Of a stretch of DNA of 64,000 nt, positions 9,763 to 19,815 are shown in pieces. Position numbers and translations under genes: made by a program. Below the pieces are notes generated by a model. The model was not told where the DNA came from. It was given only the letters and a program-made list of their open reading frames with translations, and searched no databases. The number at the start of each line of letters is the position of its first letter. Position 1 is the stretch's first letter. The stretch is from Oscillospiraceae bacterium. GTDB taxonomy: Bacteria > Bacillota > Clostridia > Oscillospirales > Acutalibacteraceae. The DNA lies in contig JAISXG010000005.1 in assembly GCA_031270605.1 (NCBI GenBank), positions 1-64,000 on the forward strand, given 5' to 3'.

Positions 9763-11049
9763 TCACCTTTGATCACTGATTATGGCGGCGCTGTTGCTTG
9801 CAGACAGGGCCGTCAGGGGGTCATACGGGGCGCCCGAAAGCGTCCCCACCAATAAGGCAATATCCACTGCGTTGGCGGGATTTCCCCATGAATTTCCTGA
9901 AAACACAAAGACTGCGCCATCCACGACAAAGCCCCTTGTGTTATAAGTGACATTGTTTAAAATGTTTCCTGTTGAATTGGGGTTCAAATAGGCCGACTGC
10001 CTCATGGAATAAAACAGGTTTTGTTGCGCCAGCAAATTGGTTACGTTGCCTTGGGTCAAAAAACCTCTGTTTACCACCCATCCCGTTGACGGGCCGGCTT
10101 GCGCGGGGCCATAAATCACATTGTTCGTGAGCCTGTGATTCGCGCCGCTCAATTGAATGAATTCAACCGCATAGGGCGCGTTACTTGTTATGGTCAGGCC
10201 GTCTAAGATCACACCTGTTCCGGTTACCAAAAAAGCGATAACCGCAGCCTGCAAGGAGATAACGGTGTTGGCATAGCCCTGTAACGTTATATTTTGTTTA
10301 TTAACGGCAATTGTGCTTGTAACCGGATACACGCCTGCCAGTATATGAACGGTGCCTGTCGGCGAAACGGCGGAAATGCCCGACTGGATCGTGCCGAAGG
10401 GGTTGGCTTGGGTGCCGTTTCCACCGACTGCGCCAGCTTGCACATACACTGAGAACGGGTTGGGCTCAAAAGTGCCAGTCGGGCCAGTCGCACCTGTGGG
10501 GCCTATTGGGCCGGTTGGGCCTGTGCTTCCGGCTAAGCCTGCCGCGCCAGTCGGGCCTGTTGGGCCTGTCGGGCCAGTGGGGCCGGTTGCACCATCGGAG
10601 GGTCCTGTTGGGCCTGTTGGGCCTGTGGGGCCGGTTTCTCCTTCTGTCACCAATTGTGTGACGATGAGCATCCCCTTAAGCGGTGCGGTAGTTGAAAAAT
10701 AAACGTTGGTATCGCCCGCGTTGATTAGCCCAAAGGTCACGGGCGCAGTCTGCACTTCAAGAATGCCTGTGCCATAGACCTCATCGTTTCTTAAAGGGCT
10801 GTTGCCCTCAATGCAGTCGCTCTGAGAGGACTCAATGGCAAACGAGGTCCCGCTCACCGCGCCTGAGAACTGCACGGCAAGCCACCAGTCAACCATATAA
10901 ATTCCGGGGTCCTGCAATGTGATCACCCCTGAAGCGGGGGTATAGGTGATGTTGCCCGCCGAAAAAGTGACGTCGTCAAACAGGACGTTTGCCAAGGGTG
11001 CGACCGGTGTGGCCGTAACCAGCTCGATTTGCAGCAATGCGTTGCTCAT
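9763..11049 (-). CDS. Collagen-like surface protein with C-terminal beta-helix
   Basis: A 428-residue protein with three parts. The N-terminal 135 residues look like a jelly-roll of the BclA C-terminal/TNF-like type ([27 protein letters not shown]). Then come about 18 collagen Gly-X-Thr triplets (GPTGPTGPT style), interrupted once. The C-terminal 230 residues have the repetitive pattern of a right-handed parallel beta-helix ([44 protein letters not shown]). No signal peptide is visible, as with exosporium/spore-surface proteins such as BclA. The start at 11049 has GGGAG 8-9 bases upstream. Spore coat or surface location is inferred. Confidence 0.8.
10474..10641 (-). repeat. Collagen-like (Gly-X-Thr)n coding repeat
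   Basis: Tandem 9-bp-based repeats encoding GPT/GAT/GPI triplets within the surface protein gene, with one phase break (GPSDGAT). Such tracts vary in length between strains through slippage or recombination. Confidence 0.85.
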
Positions 11050-11185
11050 TTTTTTTGCTCCCATGATACAGAATAAATCCACGAAAAGCCGTGCTATTCC
11101 AATATACTCGGTAAATCTGAAAATGGTGCAAAGTTGCGCGCCGCCGCCCAAGTGTTTTTTGTTTGCGGCTGTTCCGTTACGGGAA

Positions 11186-13933
11186 TCACCGTTCGAGCAG
11201 GCCGTATTTCACCTTGATGCGGTCAAGCTTTTCAAGCATGGGCCGCGCGGCGACGGCCAGAAAGAATACGGTTGCAACCGCATGCACCAAATCAAAGGGA
11301 ATGCCCTGCAAATAGGCCAGCAGAAACATTGCACGCGTGGGTTTCGGCTGCAGAATAATCACAGAGGCAGGATTCATGATGCCGCCGTAGATGAAAAATA
11401 CCGCCAGACCCCCAAACACACACAGCGAGGTCTTGCTGCGCAGCAGCAGGCCTTTTTTAAACAAAACACCCGCAAGAAAACCGATGATGCCAAAGGCAAA
11501 CATCTGCCACGGCGTCCAGATGCCCTGGCCGAAAAACAGGTTGCTCACAAAGGCGCTCACAGCGCCCGTCAAAAAGCCGGCCTCGCCGCCGAACGCCACC
11601 GCAGCGATGATGACGATCGCGGCCACGGGCTTGAACTGCGGCAGCATAAAAAACGCGGCGCGCCCGGCAACGGCGATGGCACAGAGCACAGCGAGCACCA
11701 CGAGCTCCCGCGCCTGCGGCCTGCGCCGTTCAAAAACAAGCGCAAAGGGCAGCATGGTTTCAAGCAGAACGAGCATAGATATGAGGTAATATTTTCGGTC
11801 GCCGAAATAAAACGAGCCCACATAGATGGTAAGAGGGATCAAAAACAAAATCATACCCGCCGCCGCAAGCGTGCGTTTTGAAAGCCTGCGTGAGCCGAGC
11901 GGGGTCTGCGCCGTCCATTCCTTCTCCCCCCGTTTCCAGGAAAGGGTCATGACAATTGTGATGATTTCGAGCGTGAAAAGAAGTATCAGCGCGCTGTAGC
12001 GCCACGCCTCCGCGGGGCTTGCGGCCACTTCCGCAGCCTCGCTGCCGCCCGAAATAAAAGACAAAAATCCGCTCCGGTTTTGTATTGCATAAAAAAGCGT
12101 GGCCGCAAACACGACGGCGGACGCCGCAAGAACGCCAAAGCGCAGGGGCGTAAGCTTTTTTATTTTGCTTTTGGGATTTTCGGGAGCAGGGTCTTTTTCA
12201 AGAGAATAGGCGCCGCCGTCAAAAATATGCGGCGGCTCGGGCGCACCGCCTCCCAGCGCGCAGATGACATCCGCCGCGCTCACAGCGCGAGGGAAAACGT
12301 GCCGCGCCATGCGGTTTGCGGCGGATGTATAAAAGCTGTTGCCCGAAAAAAAAGCTTTGGGTGTGTTTTCGGTAACGATACTGCCGTCAAAGAACAAAGC
12401 GCATCGGTCTGCATATTCGGCGCAGAACTCGATGTCGTGGCTCACCATCACCACGGCCGCGCCCGCGGCGGTGAGCTTGCGCAAAATTGCGGCAAAAATA
12501 ATTTTAAACTCAGAGTCAAGCCCCTTTGTCGGCTCGTCCAGCAGCAGAATGCGCGGGCGCAGCAGCAGCACCTTCGCAAGCGCCGCGCGCTGCTGCTCAC
12601 CGCCCGAAAGGTCATAGGGGTGCGTGTTTAAAAGGGGCTCAAGCCGGCACAGGGCGGCCATGTTGCGCAGTTCCTCAAATTTTTGCTCTTTGGGAATCTT
12701 GCGTTCTGAGAGAATTTCCATCAAATCCTCCCGCACGGTTTTCGCAACAAACAAACTCTGCGGATTTTGCGGCAATACGCCGAGCAGCCCCGCAAACAGT
12801 CTGCTTGAAGGGATATTCTGGATCTCCTCTCCCTCAATTCTGATTTTGCCTCGATAGGCGCGGTTGAGTCCCGCAATCAAAGAAAGCATGGTGGTTTTGC
12901 CGGTGCCGTTTCCGCCGAGCACCGCCGTCAGCTCGCCTGCGCGTGCTTCAAAGGACAGGCCCTTGATGATATCGGGGCCGTCTTTTTCATATTTGAACCA
13001 CGCCCCGTCAATAGAAATGGCGGAACCTGTTTTTGCTTTTTCTCTTTTTATCTGCACGGGGGCAGGGGGCGCTTTTGCTGCCCCGCCAGAATGCATTTGC
13101 GAAATCCACGCGCGCCCCTCACGCACCGTAACGGGGCAAGTCAGGGTGTTTTCTACGCCCGCCCACACCCGCATGGGCACGGGCATGGCGGCAAACATGC
13201 CGTGGTTTTGCGCGCGCAGGCGTTCGCCCACCCCGGCGGGCGTGCCCTCGCACAAAATGCGCCCCTGCTCCATCACAACCACACGATCCGCCATGGGCAG
13301 GGCTTCTTCCAAACGGTGATCGGTCAATAGGACCGTCACCCCCAACTCGCGGTTGATTTTTTTCACACTGGCCAAAAAATCCGCCGCGGCGATCGGGTCA
13401 AGCTGGCTTGTGGGTTCGTCCAGCAACAGCAGCGAGGGCTGTAGCGCCATTACGGACGCAAGCGCGAGCAGCTGCTTCTGCCCGCCCGAGAGCTCCGCCA
13501 CATTTTTATAAAACCAGGTCTGCATGCCGAAAAAGCTTGCCATCTCCGCCGTGCGCAGGCGGATGGAAGGGGTGTCAAGCCCCAGGCTTTCCAGCCCGAA
13601 CGCCAACTCGTGCCAGACCTTGTCCGTCACCACCTGATGCTCGGGGCTTTGCATCACAAAGCCGATTTTCGCCGCCGTGTCGCGGGCGGGGAGTTCGTTG
13701 AGGGGGGTTCCTTCAAAAAAAATCCCGCCGCTTTTTGCGCCGTGAGGTGTTAAAGCGGGTTTTAACTGCCGCAAAAGCGTTGTTTTGCCGCAGCCCGAAG
13801 CGCCGCAGAGCACCACAAACTCACCCTGCCCCAGTGTGAGAGTCACGTCCTGCAAAGCGGCCCGCTCGCGCTCCGGGTAGGTAAAATTCAGGTTTTCAAC
13901 GACAATGCTTGCGTTTTTTGCAGGGTTCTCCAA
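11186..13933 (-). CDS. ECF transporter: two ATPase domains fused to an S component
   Basis: A 915-residue fusion. ATPase 1 (about 8-235) has Walker A GASGCGKT (44-51), signature LSGGQKQ and [11 protein letters not shown]. ATPase 2 (about 303-530) has GGNGTGKT (340-347), LSGGEQQ and [11 protein letters not shown]. The C-terminal region from 597 has about eight hydrophobic segments; residues 740-900 look like an ECF S component ([38 protein letters not shown]). S components bind the vitamin; ATPases power EcfT. Separate A and S genes are usual, so the A-A-S fusion is unusual. TTG at 13933 is the likely start: AAGGAGG lies 7 bases upstream, and the gene overlaps ecfT by 46 bp. It is last in the riboswitch operon, hence probably corrinoid-specific. 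Confidence 0.85.
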
Positions 13934-14799
13934 TGCACGTCCTCCTTCATATTCACAACCAAGGGCATGGCGCACAGGGCAAAATACACCGTGAACGCCA
14001 GCAGCTGCCACAGCGTCGGCTCCGCGCCGCCGAGCATGGGGTAATACACAAATTTCAGCGCACCCCCCACCGCACCGGCAAGAGTCGCGCCGCCGCACAG
14101 CAGCAAAAAGAACAGTGCATAAGCGTCGCGGCGGCCGAAGCGGTAAATTGAGAACGCCGTGCGCCCTTTCAGGCCGTAGCCGCGGCTGCGCATGCTGTCC
14201 GCCGTTTCTATGGCGTTTTCCAGCGCCCATGTGATGAGGATGGAAAGAATTTTCATGCCGTGCTTCGCGCGCCTGAAGATGCCGCCGTTCGATACGTCGC
14301 GCCCCACACAGCGCTGCGCGGCTGAAATCACACGGATCTGCGCCCGAAACCGCGGCACAAACCGCAGCGTGAGCGCCAGCAGCAGCGAGAGCGCGGGGGC
14401 GACGCGCCCGAACAAATACACAAACTTGTCGCTGCTCATTACGGCGTTGAAGCATGAAAACCAGAGAATCACCGTGATCAGCATCACCGCCGCCGAAGCG
14501 CCGTAAAGGATGGATTCGAGCGTGAGGGGGTTGCCGTTGGGCAGATAGGTGAGAATCGTCACGCCCTGATGGCTGAACGCGGGGTTCATCAGCGCCGTGA
14601 GCACCAACAGCGGCAACAGGTAAAGCAACTGAAAGCGCAGGGCCTTTTTGCCGTTTAAACAGAGGGAATACGAAACGGCGCACAGCAGGGAAAGGCCTTG
14701 GCAAACAGGGTGCGCGAACACCATACCGCAGCCGATGACCAAGGTGAAATAGAGCATATTGATCAGCGGGTGATAACCCGAAAAACTGTCTTTATTCAT
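13888..14799 (-). CDS. ecfT: ECF transporter transmembrane (T) component
   Basis: 303 residues with about six membrane segments and the EcfT coupling signature ADSMRSRGYG near residue 205, which contacts the ATPases. A second conserved helix (FVPRFRAQIRVISAAQRCVG) precedes it. EcfT links ATP hydrolysis to toppling of the S component in the membrane. ATG at 14799 has AAAGGAT upstream. Its stop lies inside the ATPase-S gene, indicating tight coupling. No separate S gene adjoins it; the S part is fused to the ATPases downstream. Confidence 0.88.
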   Translation of the reverse strand: MNKDSFSGYHPLINMLYFTLVIGCGMVFAHPVCQGLSLLCAVSYSLCLNGKKALRFQLLYLLPLLVLTALMNPAFSHQGVTILTYLPNGNPLTLESILYGASAAVMLITVILWFSCFNAVMSSDKFVYLFGRVAPALSLLLALTLRFVPRFRAQIRVISAAQRCVGRDVSNGGIFRRAKHGMKILSILITWALENAIETADSMRSRGYGLKGRTAFSIYRFGRRDAYALFFLLLCGGATLAGAVGGALKFVYYPMLGGAEPTLWQLLAFTVYFALCAMPLVVNMKEDVHWRTLQKTQALSLKT

Positions 14800-14808
14800 T
14801 TTGATCCT

Positions 14809-15984
14809 TTAAGGCAGTTCGCCCACGGCGTAGCCGCCGCCCACATCCCTGCCGAGGTCGCAGGTGTAGACCCATTCGATCACGTCGCCGTTTTTAAGCA
14901 CATAGCGGCTGCAGCCGTAGTTGGGGAACCAGCCGTTCACCTTATACATCCAGCCGGAAAGGGAGCCGCAGTCGAATTCATATAAATTGTGGATGCCTTC
15001 AATGTAAGCGGAGTTGTACATGGGGGTAAAGACAAACTCCATGTGGATTTTTGAAGCGCGGGTCTCGCGCTGCAGCACGTCAAACACACTCTCGCCCTCA
15101 TAAAATACCACCGTGCGCGTGGGCATGATCACACCGTCTTTGGGCAGCACCGGGAGCTTGTCCTGATTGAACTGGTCCATGTTCTGCAAAATGGTGTCGC
15201 AGCGGATGGAGAGCGTCGCGGTGTGCTTTTTTTCTTTTTCAACCGTCACATCTTCCGGTTCCACAGGCTTCGGTTTGCCCGAGGGCACTTCGTCCGTCAA
15301 ATATTTGTCTTTTGTCGCGGGCTCGGCGACTGTCGGCTTTTTGGTTTCATTTACATAAGCATCCGTCGCTTTGTTGCTTTGCCCTAGCGCTGTTGCGGAC
15401 GCCCCGGGTTCGGAGCCCGCGGCCGCTTCTGTAGTGCTCTGCTCCTGTGTTGTGCGCCCCACCAGATAAAATAGCCCCTTGAAGGTTTGGGGAATGAGGG
15501 TAACAACGGCGTTGGGCACGTTTTCAAGCGCGGCGGTTGCGACAAGCGTCAGGGAGTCTGTCTGCGCGTCATACTGATAGACCTCCGCGCTGTCTGCGTT
15601 CCACGGATAGGTGAAATACACCGAAAGAGAGGGGCCGCCAAGGATCTCTTCGCCGTTTGCAAAGCTGAATTCCTGCACATGCTCCGCTGAAAGCCGCGCT
15701 TTGACCTCCTGCGTTTTTGCGCTTGAAAAGGTCACGAGCAGGTTTTCATCCCTCGGCTCCTCAAGCAGGCTGCCCATAAAGAGCCATTGATAGGTGATGT
15801 CGTTGCTGTTGCCGTTAAAAATGCCGATGTCGCCGCTTTCCTGAATGCCTTTGAACACCGCCCGGGCGACCCTTCCGTCTTCAGGAATCTGCAGCGTGCG
15901 GTTGATTGTTTCTTTTCCGCAGCCAAAAAAAGACAGAAGCAGCAGGGATAAAAGAAGACAGGCAATTCGTTTGATGTGTTTCAT
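14809..15984 (-). CDS. DUF4430 (transcobalamin C-terminal-like) lipoprotein
   Basis: 391 residues. The lipoprotein signal has the lipobox FFGC (Cys22), so the protein is anchored on the outer face of the membrane. The middle carries a Ser/Thr/Ala/Pro-rich linker (about 185-245). The C-terminal 110 residues are a DUF4430 domain: FYEGESVFDVLQRE, GSLSGWMYKVNGWFPNYG and NGDVIEWVYTCDLG match the beta domain of transcobalamin/intrinsic factor. It sits 10 bp before ecfT, in the place of a substrate-capturing partner for the transporter. ATG at 15984 follows AAGGGGAG by 6 bases; the upstream TTG is not needed. Corrinoid binding is inferred from fold and riboswitch. Confidence 0.85.
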   Translation of the reverse strand: MKHIKRIACLLLSLLLLSFFGCGKETINRTLQIPEDGRVARAVFKGIQESGDIGIFNGNSNDITYQWLFMGSLLEEPRDENLLVTFSSAKTQEVKARLSAEHVQEFSFANGEEILGGPSLSVYFTYPWNADSAEVYQYDAQTDSLTLVATAALENVPNAVVTLIPQTFKGLFYLVGRTTQEQSTTEAAAGSEPGASATALGQSNKATDAYVNETKKPTVAEPATKDKYLTDEVPSGKPKPVEPEDVTVEKEKKHTATLSIRCDTILQNMDQFNQDKLPVLPKDGVIMPTRTVVFYEGESVFDVLQRETRASKIHMEFVFTPMYNSAYIEGIHNLYEFDCGSLSGWMYKVNGWFPNYGCSRYVLKNGDVIEWVYTCDLGRDVGGGYAVGELP

Positions 15985-15996
15985 GTTCAACTCCCC

Positions 15997-16656
15997 TTAT
16001 TGCACCACAATTTTTGCGGAATATGCTTTGAGGGTGCGCATGGCGGTTGCAAGGCTGGTGCGGGTTTCTGCGCCGCCGATTGTAGCGATAACCGCGTCGG
16101 TCACGGTGATATCATAAATCTCGCCGACCTGCGCGCTGTCGCGCAAACGAAAGCGCAGGCGCAGCAAAATATCTTTTTCGTCTTTTTGAAAGCCCTCGCG
16201 CACATAGGCGAACTTGCCGCCGGTAACGTCAAGGTACATGGTGTTGAGTTCGCCCGTTTGGTTCGCGAAAGCCGCATCGCTCTTCCAAATGGGGATATTG
16301 TAGGTCACTTCCTCCTGCGTGGAGTCGCCCAGTGTCATCATGGTTCCCTGGCGCGCGCCGAGGAATTCGAGCTTGTTTTTATCAAACCGCACCGAAAGGC
16401 TGGCGGCGGGATAGACGCGGTCGGGCAGGTCTGAAAGCAGCACGTCAACATTGATTTCATCCCGGTTATCGACCGCAACAGGCGCGGGGGACAACAGCGT
16501 GAGCGAGGGGGCGAACAGCTTTTCTGTCGCGCCGCCCATAAGAAGAATCATCATTATGATGATTGCCGCAAACAGCAGGCCTGCGGCAATGAGCAGGATA
16601 CGGTTCCGTTTATTTTGCAAAAAAGCGCTCTCGCGCAGGGATTTGATGGGATCCAT
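15997..16656 (-). CDS. Membrane-anchored cohesin-like protein
   Basis: 219 residues: a short cytoplasmic N-terminus, one membrane helix (about 20-41), then one extracellular beta-rich domain of about 160 residues. This domain has the cohesin/carbohydrate-binding-like pattern: YPAASLSVRFDKNKLEFLGA (strand pair after the first motif), LLRLRFRLRDSAQVGEIYDI and a terminal ITVTDAVI strand. Cohesins bind dockerins; the gene directly upstream encodes a dockerin-ended protein, so this may be its membrane docking partner. ATG at 16656 follows GGAG by 7 bases. It lies 12 bp before the DUF4430 lipoprotein gene. Domain assignment is by pattern and should be confirmed by profile search. Confidence 0.7.
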   Translation of the reverse strand: MDPIKSLRESAFLQNKRNRILLIAAGLLFAAIIIMMILLMGGATEKLFAPSLTLLSPAPVAVDNRDEINVDVLLSDLPDRVYPAASLSVRFDKNKLEFLGARQGTMMTLGDSTQEEVTYNIPIWKSDAAFANQTGELNTMYLDVTGGKFAYVREGFQKDEKDILLRLRFRLRDSAQVGEIYDITVTDAVIATIGGAETRTSLATAMRTLKAYSAKIVVQ

Positions 16657-16739
16657 ACGTTTCTCCGTTCCGCCGCGGCGCGGCATGGCAGTTGTGGACG
16701 GGGGCGCCGCTCATAATTCAGCGCCCCCGCGCTGAAAAA

Positions 16740-19382
16740 TTACCTGCTGAGAATGGCAAGCTCCGCGCCGGAAACATAATGCTCCAGAATCGCGAGCGCG
16801 TCAAAGGTGTTGATGCGCGCGTCGGAGGTGACGTTGTAGGTCAGAATCTGCAAATCGGTGCTGACGGAGGTTTTGCGCAGCCATGCCGAAATCATGTCCA
16901 GCGCGTCCTGCGCGTTGATGACGCTGTTGCCGTCTGTGTCGCCGAACGCGACGACCGACGCCGCCGCACCCTGCAAATGATAGTTTTCCGCCTTTTGCAG
17001 CTCCTCTGCCGCTTCGGTCGGCACGGTGAACAGCACATAGGTGTTCGCGCCCTGCTTCGCCGTCATTTCGGGGGAGAAAATCAGCTCCGCGCCTTTGTAG
17101 TCAAGGCCGCTGCCCGCGGGAATGCCGCTGAACGTCACGGCCACCGCGCGCTTGTCCGCCGGGATGAGGTCAACGCCGTCGCCTGTGAACAGCTCGCGCA
17201 CCGAAACGCCCACGGTTGAGAAAGCAACGCTGAGTGCCGCTTGCGCGACGTCAAACACAAACGCCGCCGCATCTGATTTTTCTTTGAGCGTCAGGCCGCC
17301 CACACTGACGGTTGCGGCCGATGCTTCGTCCATATCAGACTTCAGCTTCAAGGTCACAGTCAGAAGCTCGGCGGGGAAGGAAGTGCCCGAAATGCCGATA
17401 TTCTCAAGGCTGCTGTTCGTGTAAACAAAGCGTAGCTTTTTGTCCGCCGCGTTGTAGTTCCAAGACAGCGCACCCCCGTTGAGGCGGTCAGAGGCCGCGA
17501 CGTTCTCGACGCTGAACGCGTCGGGGATGTTGAGCAGCCCGTCCATGAGCTTAAAATTGCCCTCGGGGAAGGCCTTTGTTTTCACAAGCACATTGAAGGC
17601 GGTGCCCGCCTTGCCAGTGATCTGCCCGGGCCCTTCCAAAATAATGGAAGCTGCCTGCTCCGGCGGCTCTTCTGTGGACGTGAATGCGTCTGTCATGTTA
17701 TAAAGACTGTTTTTGCCTTTTACAAAGCGGTCATAGGCCACAAGGGCATAGGCCGACTGGTCTGTCGCCATGCCGTTGACGCCTGAGCCCGCGCCCGAAC
17801 CGAGAATGTGGGCAAAGCCGCCGCCCTCAACATAGAAGCGCAGCAGAGCCGTCACGGGATTGTTGCCCTCTTTCACAAAGCGGCTGTCCGTCGCAGGATC
17901 GACGCCCAGCGCCGTTAAGGCCACAATAACCTGCGCGATGCTTTCGGCGTTCACCGAGCCCCATGAGGCATAGCCGCCGTCCGTTCTCTGTATGGCGGAC
18001 AAAGCCGTGACCGCGCGCGTGATTACTCCCGCAACGGCGGGCTGTGAGCGGTAGGGCGCCAGCGCCTGCAAAACCATGGCGGTCATATCCGGATCGGGCG
18101 TGGTGCCGGAAAGGGCAAAACCGCCCGCGTCATCCGTGCCTTTTTTGATTTCCCTGTCCAGAATATAATCAATCAGCCTCTGGCGGGTCACCTGGTCGGC
18201 GGCCGTGGCGGTCGAATAACCAGTCATCGCCGCCGTTGCAAGAACATCCGGAATGTCGTAGCCGTTTGTGTCCAGGGCAATCAGGGCGAACACCGGGCCG
18301 TTGATGCCCTGCTTTTGCACCTGGGGCATGCTTGAAAGCCACGCGGTCAGGTCATAGCCGCCCACATCGGTGGAATCCCTGCCAAGCGAGCTTAACGCCA
18401 TAATCAGGCGTGAGTATTCGGTTTTCTTTGAGCTTGAGCTAGGTAGAATGCCGTTGTTTTCTGTGACAACATCTTCGATTCTGCCGTAATAGTCTTCAAA
18501 ATAGCCTTCCGGTACGGCATGCCCGGCGCGCGCAAGAGAGAGCACAGTCCACTCGCCGCCGCCCGTTCCGAACGCCGGGGCTGGGACGGTGCCGAGCATA
18601 TAGTCAAGCGTGGTGCTGAGATGTATGCTGATATCCACACTGCTTGCGGGCGGCTGCGCCTGCAACGCCGTGTTGAGCGCAGTCAGCACGCTGTCAACCG
18701 CCGATTGCTCCGCGCGCAGGTTCCCGAGCACGGTATACGCCGCGTCATAAGCGCTTTGCACACCGCTCTTTGCCAGAAGTTCCGCCTTGTTTGGCGCGGA
18801 ATTGATTTGCGCAACTTTTGCCGTCAATGCGTCCTTGTCGGCCCGTTCATACATCGGATCGGACATAAAGCTTGAGCCGAGGTCCGCGCCGTAGCCGTAG
18901 ACGGTGAACTGCCAGCGGCAGACGTCGCCGTTCTGCGCGTACACCGCGCCGGCGGAGCGGTCGATATAAGTATTGTTGACCGTGATCATCCAACCGGACA
19001 TGCCGTAATAATCAAACTGCCCGAGCGTCTCCCCCTCCGCTTTGCCGGTTTGGTCAAGCGGGCCGGTTTCGTCGAGAATAAACTGCGGGATGTTCACGGT
19101 AATCGCGCGCGGCAGAATAACTGTCTCCATGTAAAACGTGCCGTCGTCGACTGAGCCGCTGTTTTCGTATTTACCGTCCAGAAGACGGTCGGTGATCTGC
19201 GCGAAGCTTTCACCCTCATAGAAGGGAACCTGCACCGGCTCATACAAAAAACCGTTACCCAACGTGTTGATGTCGACCGAAACCGTGACATAGCCCGCAG
19301 GAGCGTCCTGCGCAAAGGCGGGACCCGCAAAGCTCAGAACCAGACTCAAAACGAGAAGAACACTCAAAAATTTTTTCTTCAT
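16740..19382 (-). CDS. Secreted intrinsic-factor/transcobalamin-like protein with cohesin-like and dockerin modules
   Basis: 880 residues. Signal peptide 1-25; DUF4430 domain about 35-170 (PFYEGESFAQITDRLLDG, MSGWMITVNNTYID, NGDVCRWQFT); a helical FIVAR-like stretch 180-245; an alpha/alpha-barrel of prenyltransferase/squalene-cyclase-like repeats 255-565 (DDAGGFALSGTTPDPDMTAM, TDGGYASWGSVNAESIAQV); a cohesin-like beta domain about 580-720; a further beta region; and a dockerin at 812-878 with DTDGNSVINAQDAL and a second, degenerate loop (TSDARINTFDAL). Mammalian B12 carriers combine the same barrel and beta domain in the opposite order. AAAGGAG lies 8 bases before ATG 19382. It is first gene after a cobalamin riboswitch, so corrinoid binding is the leading hypothesis. 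Confidence 0.85.
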   Translation of the reverse strand: MKKKFLSVLLVLSLVLSFAGPAFAQDAPAGYVTVSVDINTLGNGFLYEPVQVPFYEGESFAQITDRLLDGKYENSGSVDDGTFYMETVILPRAITVNIPQFILDETGPLDQTGKAEGETLGQFDYYGMSGWMITVNNTYIDRSAGAVYAQNGDVCRWQFTVYGYGADLGSSFMSDPMYERADKDALTAKVAQINSAPNKAELLAKSGVQSAYDAAYTVLGNLRAEQSAVDSVLTALNTALQAQPPASSVDISIHLSTTLDYMLGTVPAPAFGTGGGEWTVLSLARAGHAVPEGYFEDYYGRIEDVVTENNGILPSSSSKKTEYSRLIMALSSLGRDSTDVGGYDLTAWLSSMPQVQKQGINGPVFALIALDTNGYDIPDVLATAAMTGYSTATAADQVTRQRLIDYILDREIKKGTDDAGGFALSGTTPDPDMTAMVLQALAPYRSQPAVAGVITRAVTALSAIQRTDGGYASWGSVNAESIAQVIVALTALGVDPATDSRFVKEGNNPVTALLRFYVEGGGFAHILGSGAGSGVNGMATDQSAYALVAYDRFVKGKNSLYNMTDAFTSTEEPPEQAASIILEGPGQITGKAGTAFNVLVKTKAFPEGNFKLMDGLLNIPDAFSVENVAASDRLNGGALSWNYNAADKKLRFVYTNSSLENIGISGTSFPAELLTVTLKLKSDMDEASAATVSVGGLTLKEKSDAAAFVFDVAQAALSVAFSTVGVSVRELFTGDGVDLIPADKRAVAVTFSGIPAGSGLDYKGAELIFSPEMTAKQGANTYVLFTVPTEAAEELQKAENYHLQGAAASVVAFGDTDGNSVINAQDALDMISAWLRKTSVSTDLQILTYNVTSDARINTFDALAILEHYVSGAELAILSR

Positions 19383-19466
19383 AAACACAACTCCTTTTAA
19401 TTTTTTCTGTGGGATTGTCCGTCCTTTTCTTTTTTTTCATCACTCCTTTCTATCGTTTTGTGAACA

Positions 19467-19502: not shown

Positions 19503-19582
19503 CACATGCTTTCATAAGGCCCCTTTGGAGACCTTTTTTTGAAAACATCTGCTCTCCTCACCGAAAGCGTGTTCACCGTAAT

Positions 19583-19775
19583 ATGGTAGGTCTCCTGACT
19601 TAAAGCTTCAAACCTAATCCATTCGCCTTCCCAGTCCGCACGGCGAGCCGTGGTTTCCAGTGACCTGCGCAGAGCCGTTTTCGCCCTGCGCTGAATGTTT
19701 CGTAGCTTTTACAGTAGGTGTGAGCTGCCCCGGATTCTCACCGGGTTCCCTGTTAGGCACCCGAAGGTGCGCCAT
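19583..19775 (-). promoter_or_regulatory. Cobalamin (B12) riboswitch
   Basis: Read on the minus strand, the segment shows the conserved cobalamin-aptamer boxes in order: a hairpin with GGTGCC, AACAGGGAA, GGTGAGAATCCGGGGCAG, a central domain with CTGCGCAGGTCACTGG and GGGAAGGCG, and the closing B12 box AAGTCAGGAGACCTACC. Adenosylcobalamin-type aptamers with this layout repress B12 uptake and synthesis genes. Here it heads the five-gene DUF4430/cohesin/ECF operon. Confidence 0.95.
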
Positions 19776-19785
19776 ATACACTTTC

Positions 19786-19815
19786 ATTATAAGGCAACGG
19801 CACGCGCAAAGTCAA
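19786..19815 (-). promoter_or_regulatory. Promoter of the riboswitch operon
   Basis: On the minus strand TTGACT (19815-19810), 18 bp, TATAAT (19791-19786). Transcription would begin near 19779, immediately before the aptamer. Confidence 0.8.

Follow-up and report, generated by a model that had tools for sequence, protein, structure and literature searches.

Does a bacterial protein that unites the two folds of the animal vitamin B12 carriers serve in acquiring that vitamin? The question arises from a minus-strand gene in a 64,000-nt stretch of Oscillospiraceae bacterium DNA (contig JAISXG010000005.1; hereafter, the window), whose product a first-pass annotation, made from the letters alone, had described as a domain-permuted counterpart of intrinsic factor and transcobalamin. 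The open reading frame comprises 882 codons and runs from a GTG at 19388 to 16740, but the likelier start is the ATG at 19382, which is preceded by AGGAG and opens a clean signal peptide ending at AFA/Q, confirming the gene boundaries given in that annotation. The N-terminal DUF4430 domain scores 22.2 bits when the whole protein is searched against Pfam, just below the cut-off of 23.8 bits, and clears that cut-off in a genome scan (25.8 bits); in a profile–profile comparison with the second DUF4430 protein of the operon, hhalign returns a probability of 98.8% (E 1.4e-16). The barrel has weak Pfam matches only (SQHop_cyclase_C and squalene-cyclase-type repeats) and was modelled together with the DUF4430 domain by AlphaFold2 (residues 26–590, 68 sequences; pLDDT 93.1, pTM 0.78), residues 245–559 forming an α6/α6 toroid in the model. 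In the whole-protein search the dockerin (19.6 bits) is sub-threshold, as is the cohesin-like module; searched alone, the dockerin piece passes Pfam Dockerin_1 (25.1 bits, cut-off 22.9), and it matches PDB dockerins at E 3e-5. The four-module arrangement recurs unchanged in a relative at locus L040, whose cohesin (37.2 bits) and dockerin (40.8 bits) both exceed the cut-off. The annotation was thus right that a β domain and an α6/α6 barrel share one bacterial protein, and right about the added cohesin-like and dockerin modules.

Table 1 Features of the capture-protein locus, with positions in the window
Feature	Position	Strand	Basis
Cobalamin riboswitch RF00174, full length	19568–19791	minus	cmscan 76.6 bits against a 31.5-bit cut-off, E 4.2e-17
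Presumed B12 capture protein, secreted, DUF4430–barrel–cohesin–dockerin	16740–19382	minus	Open reading frame, ribosome binding site, signal peptide, domains
DUF4430 β domain of capture protein, residues 32–172 (882-codon numbering)	18873–19295	minus	Pfam near cut-off, hhalign, β-β-α-β order in model
α6/α6 barrel of capture protein, residues 245–568	17685–18656	minus	AlphaFold2 pLDDT mostly >90; VIA fold matches
Cohesin-like module of capture protein, residues 589–705	17274–17624	minus	Pfam Cohesin 19.5 bits, sub-threshold
Dockerin type I module, two EF-hand-like loops, residues 806–882	16743–16973	minus	Pfam Dockerin_1, PDB dockerins
Membrane-anchored cohesin (N-terminal transmembrane helix and cohesin), presumed dockerin tether	15997–16686	minus	Pfam Cohesin in family; co-occurrence
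Exported DUF4430 protein, probable lipoprotein (DUF4430 at 14851–15111)	14809–15990	minus	Pfam DUF4430 62.7 bits
ECF T-component, CbiQ type	13888–14799	minus	Pfam CbiQ 31.5 bits, over cut-off; relatives in most loci
Two ECF ATPases and S-component fused, one gene	about 11186–13933	minus	NCBIfam ECF_ATPase_1 332.7 bits, over cut-off
S-component region, CbrT-related	11186–11950	minus	phmmer to 6fnp_A

A cobalamin riboswitch, the sole Rfam match in the window, lies directly upstream of the capture gene, and the genes that follow encode further surface proteins and a transporter (Table 1). The second DUF4430 protein of the operon is strongly conserved, with about 80% column identity across genera; a lipobox scan of DUF4430-only genes found 14 of 62 to be lipobox-like, and many apparently start with a transmembrane helix instead. 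The two ATPases and the S-component form a single open frame with a TTG start behind AAGGAGGA. Over its full length the S-component matches that of ECF-CbrT from Lactobacillus delbrueckii (6fnp_A; phmmer E 6.8e-13, residues 75–250 against 4–177), its only strong PDB relative, and by homology the importer is a CbrT-type ECF system. CbrT imports cobalamin and cobinamide, as demonstrated experimentally (PMC5997447). The first-pass annotation was silent on the riboswitch and the remaining operon genes and had drawn its B12 link from the folds; the riboswitch and the CbrT-type S-component support that link. The S-component is fused to both ATPases here and in many related loci, although, according to the abstracts of recent work (PMC10368641, PMC12075633), it joins and leaves the ECF module during the transport cycle. 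A gene with collagen-like triple-helix repeats adjoins the transporter (9763–11151, minus strand; Pfam Collagen 29.3 bits).

The association extends well beyond this locus. Cobalamin riboswitches number exactly two in the genome itself, and behind each lie a DUF4430 gene and ECF components. The genome also encodes three proteins with B12-binding domains (B12-binding enzymes), and CbiD was not found in it, a combination that fits a B12 consumer. The second riboswitch (G000:C21:42178-43650; loci L002 and L005) controls a short membrane-anchored DUF4430 protein, behind which comes an ECF-type S-component of another kind. Small DUF4430 proteins placed directly after a riboswitch are common in the order and perhaps serve another corrinoid-related substrate. 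Mapping across 98 genomes of the order gave 72 cobalamin riboswitches and 115 DUF4430 domains. For 48 of the 72 riboswitches a DUF4430 domain follows on the same strand at a distance of at most 8 kb, and for none does one lie upstream, against 0.18 expected from density; 28 of the 32 barrel matches have a DUF4430 within 5 kb. A separate set comprised 79 loci of named genomes, chosen by barrel similarity only. Under a strict rule based on Rfam, the barrel gene has a riboswitch ahead of it in 32 of the 40 loci tested; a regular-expression scan proved overly stringent, detecting 11 of 79 and missing the riboswitch of the window itself. In two loci beyond these 32 (L073 and L098) it overlaps the start of the open frame, and for L036 and L066 the DNA preceding the gene is short or missing. 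When the window is added to give 80 loci, T-component relatives were found in 57, ATPase relatives in 57 and S-component relatives in 53, and 77 encode a DUF4430, either as part of the barrel protein or by its own gene further downstream. The barrel/DUF4430 family is widespread in Firmicutes; the viral-classified contig IMGVR_UViG_2799112468 also bears a DUF4430 relative with 51% identity (L115 3001-3129).

The system occurs in the genomes of CbiD-positive as well as CbiD-negative species. This breadth, together with the transport of cobinamide by CbrT (PMC5997447), would suit a substrate that is a precursor or relative of cobalamin (cobinamide, other cobamides, α-ribazole or a lower-ligand base) in place of cobalamin itself. 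We regard such a substrate as unlikely; it is CbrT and the cobalamin carriers that the proteins resemble, and the change would alter the substrate while leaving the mechanism as it is.

Whether the barrel is that of a carrier was addressed by structural comparison. The comparison with human carriers that the first-pass annotation had proposed gave a match, the barrel of the capture protein superposing on the α domain of human transcobalamin (7qbg_C) with a VIA Z of 18.6 (rmsd 3.2 over 251 residues). The same barrel is closer, however, to terpene cyclases, drimenyl-PP synthase reaching Z 21.9; it also matches sugar epimerases and glucuronyl hydrolases (Z 19–20), and in a Foldseek search with the capture-protein model rat transcobalamin appears at rank 23. 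In the profile searches that were likewise proposed, hhalign linked the N-terminal domain to DUF4430; against PDB sequences the barrel profile found cyclases, prenyltransferases and macroglobulins but no animal carriers, and the DUF4430 profile found nothing meaningful and no animal carriers. Among the Pfam matches of the capture protein there is no eukaryotic cobalamin-binding family.

These matches raise the possibility that the barrel acts outside the cell as an enzyme, either like a terpenoid cyclase or on polysaccharides, and shares the operon by accident, its best profile and VIA matches being squalene-hopene and drimenyl-diphosphate synthases. The catalytic acids of a class II terpenoid cyclase, whose presence in a barrel with no cleft facing the β domain would, by the first-pass annotation, have refuted its reading, are retained in part: the DXDD motif reads DxD(M/I/L)T in the window and in most relatives, so that two aspartates are kept and the third is replaced by methionine, isoleucine or leucine. 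The signal peptide and surface anchors place the protein outside the cell, where prenyl diphosphate is not expected, and control by a B12 riboswitch and the CbrT-type neighbours argue in the same direction. With the DXDD motif incomplete and the protein secreted, a terpenoid cyclase was rejected, and an enzymatic role of either kind seems highly improbable.

The comparison that separates carriers from other barrels came from a relative in Tissierella simiarum (L039), which has the order barrel–linker–DUF4430 and a riboswitch 273 bases upstream. In a Foldseek search with its AlphaFold2 model (pLDDT 92.6, pTM 0.71), ranks 1–15 are taken up entirely by transcobalamin, intrinsic factor and haptocorrin (E 1.1e-11 to 5.7e-9), the next match standing at 2e-5. 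Its β domain alone superposes on the human transcobalamin β domain with cyanocobalamin (5np4; TM 0.74, rmsd 2.6, 21% identity) and also matches 5no0; the fold match of the β domain thus rests on this relative and not on the β domain of the capture protein itself. When both domains are superposed on transcobalamin, the rmsd rises to 12–13, which suggests that in these ligand-free models the domains are placed unlike those of the closed animal clamp.

The DUF4430 proteins might instead bind the corrinoid by themselves, the barrel binding a glycan, a wall polymer or a host or prey B12-carrier protein that is stripped of its B12. In 28 loci the barrel protein lacks a DUF4430 of its own and relies on a separate one, barrels of this type match the sugar epimerases and glucuronyl hydrolases noted above, and the isolated human β domain was crystallised with cyanocobalamin (5np4). 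The barrel is nevertheless under the B12 riboswitch and nearly always near DUF4430 (28 of 32 barrels; 77 of 80 loci), and barrel and DUF4430 are repeatedly combined, as they are in the animal carriers. Its invariant polar residues, moreover, resemble a conserved ligand pocket; the conserved positions (W, R, QGxNG, DxDxT, ES, DxRF, the histidine of GGFxH and ATxQ) are candidates for such a pocket. We consider a division of binding of this sort improbable and favour joint binding by the two domains.

The reversed order of the two folds, which the first-pass annotation had singled out, proved not to be distinctive. Among 109 barrels, DUF4430 stands just before the barrel in 25, just after it in 17 and on both sides in 6, and in 61 the barrel is alone within reach in its protein; the arrangement changes about 25 times on the barrel tree. 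The family includes DUF4430–barrel, barrel–DUF4430, two-sided and tandem forms, and the DUF4430-first order of the window is therefore one of several. The animal order, barrel and then DUF4430, is also present in bacteria; TCN proteins have DUF4430 at their C terminus (PMC4350170).

The C-terminal modules bear on where the protein resides. In all 19 loci (19 of 19) where the barrel protein bears this dockerin subtype, a membrane-cohesin gene of its own stands nearby, and neither was found in the other 61 (0 of 61). All 16 members tested of the membrane-cohesin family match Pfam Cohesin (best 1.2e-9), the copy in the window scoring 17.5 bits, under the cut-off, and all 16 dockerin relatives match Dockerin_1. 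The dockerin label changes about six times on the barrel tree, indicating that the dockerin/cohesin pair is not one inherited block. Relatives without a dockerin have S-layer homology domains (L038, L041 and L099) or a C-terminal membrane or sorting-like tail, and we read dockerin, S-layer and membrane anchors, as predicted from sequence, as exchangeable means of retaining the carrier at the surface. Because its dockerin is matched by a neighbouring membrane-cohesin gene, the capture protein is probably tethered and not free, and the mobile extracellular carrier originally envisaged is unlikely in any simple sense. This leaves unexplained four loci (L040, L052, L073 and L081) in which the barrel protein ends in dockerin-like repeats and no cohesin neighbour was detected; those dockerins may dock on a cohesin encoded elsewhere. 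In 18 of the 19 dockerin loci the barrel protein has its own cohesin-like module beside the dockerin, which would permit chain formation; by BLASTP this module shows no similarity to the membrane cohesin.

The riboswitch, the operon, the folds, the relatives and the co-occurrence of anchors, all computed here, argue that the protein is quite probably the part of a cobalamin uptake system that captures its substrate at the cell surface, for which we infer the following binding, clamp geometry, cohesin–dockerin contact and handover. At low cellular B12 the riboswitch would permit expression, and the barrel/DUF4430 protein would be secreted and bind corrinoid, most likely held between the barrel (α-like) and DUF4430 (β-like) as in transcobalamin and intrinsic factor. 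Docking of its C-terminal dockerin on the membrane cohesin, the product of the adjacent gene, would keep the carrier close to the transporter. The corrinoid would pass to the second DUF4430 protein, itself attached to the membrane, or that protein would complete the clamp with the barrel, and the corrinoid would then be delivered to the CbrT-type S-component for ATP-driven import. Counted against the capture reading are the nearness of the capture protein's own barrel to cyclases, the domain placement (rmsd 12–13) and the 28 loci with a separate DUF4430. ECF S-components alone bind their substrate with nM affinity (PMC5997447), which suggests that capture proteins would not be strictly needed.

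We predict from sequence and models that the capture protein works like a carrier of the intrinsic factor/transcobalamin type; kinship by descent is more tentative, since no sequence-level match links its barrel to the carriers and the domain order in this copy differs. A stronger proposal, that these are true Firmicutes homologues of the animal B12 clamp, with shuffled order, tethered and feeding an ECF importer, and that the animal carriers descend from such a protein, is conceivable, and we hold it only tentatively. If the proposed function is correct, many proteins now labelled DUF4430 or terpene cyclase-like would become a B12-capture family, ECF transporters would gain dedicated extracellular receptors, cohesin–dockerin pairs would gain a role outside cellulose degradation, the origin of intrinsic factor and transcobalamin would become testable, and there would be a bearing on microbe–host competition for B12.

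B12 capture by Gram-positive gut bacteria has been little described, whereas the route in Bacteroides is known. There, BtuG and BtuH capture B12 at the surface and feed an importer; their folds are unrelated to the barrel and DUF4430, and they operate in a TonB/BtuB outer-membrane setting. Surface B12 lipoproteins of this type are described for B. thetaiotaomicron (PMC12751083). A search of the open-licence PMC literature found no description of a bacterial barrel/DUF4430 system, which may have been published elsewhere; one paper there handles cohesin–dockerin and cobalamin as separate topics (PMC10553843). With ECF-CbrT (6FNP, PMC5997447) the present system shares a homologous S-component, a T-component, two ECF-type ATPases and the link to cobalamin, but here the ECF module is dedicated and encoded in one operon, the S-component is fused to the ATPases and there are dedicated extracellular proteins, whereas the consulted part of PMC5997447 describes no extracellular binding protein for ECF-CbrT. 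With cellulosomes it shares Pfam Cohesin and Dockerin_1 domains on different proteins, a predicted pairing in which a surface cohesin is presumed to hold a secreted dockerin protein; the cargo is here a presumed vitamin carrier and not a carbohydrate-active enzyme, with one dedicated pair per operon. Transcobalamin, intrinsic factor and haptocorrin (2bb5, 2pmv, 4kki) have in common with the window protein an α6/α6 barrel and a DUF4430-type β domain. In contrast to them, the window protein is bacterial, has DUF4430 first and carries an extra cohesin and dockerin, its barrel has no detectable sequence similarity to theirs and its modelled domain placement is not transcobalamin-like. The riboswitch, the CbrT-type transporter and the fold matches of the family support the reading of this protein as a counterpart of intrinsic factor and transcobalamin that serves bacterial B12 acquisition, and animal-style B12 carriers thus appear to have bacterial counterparts.
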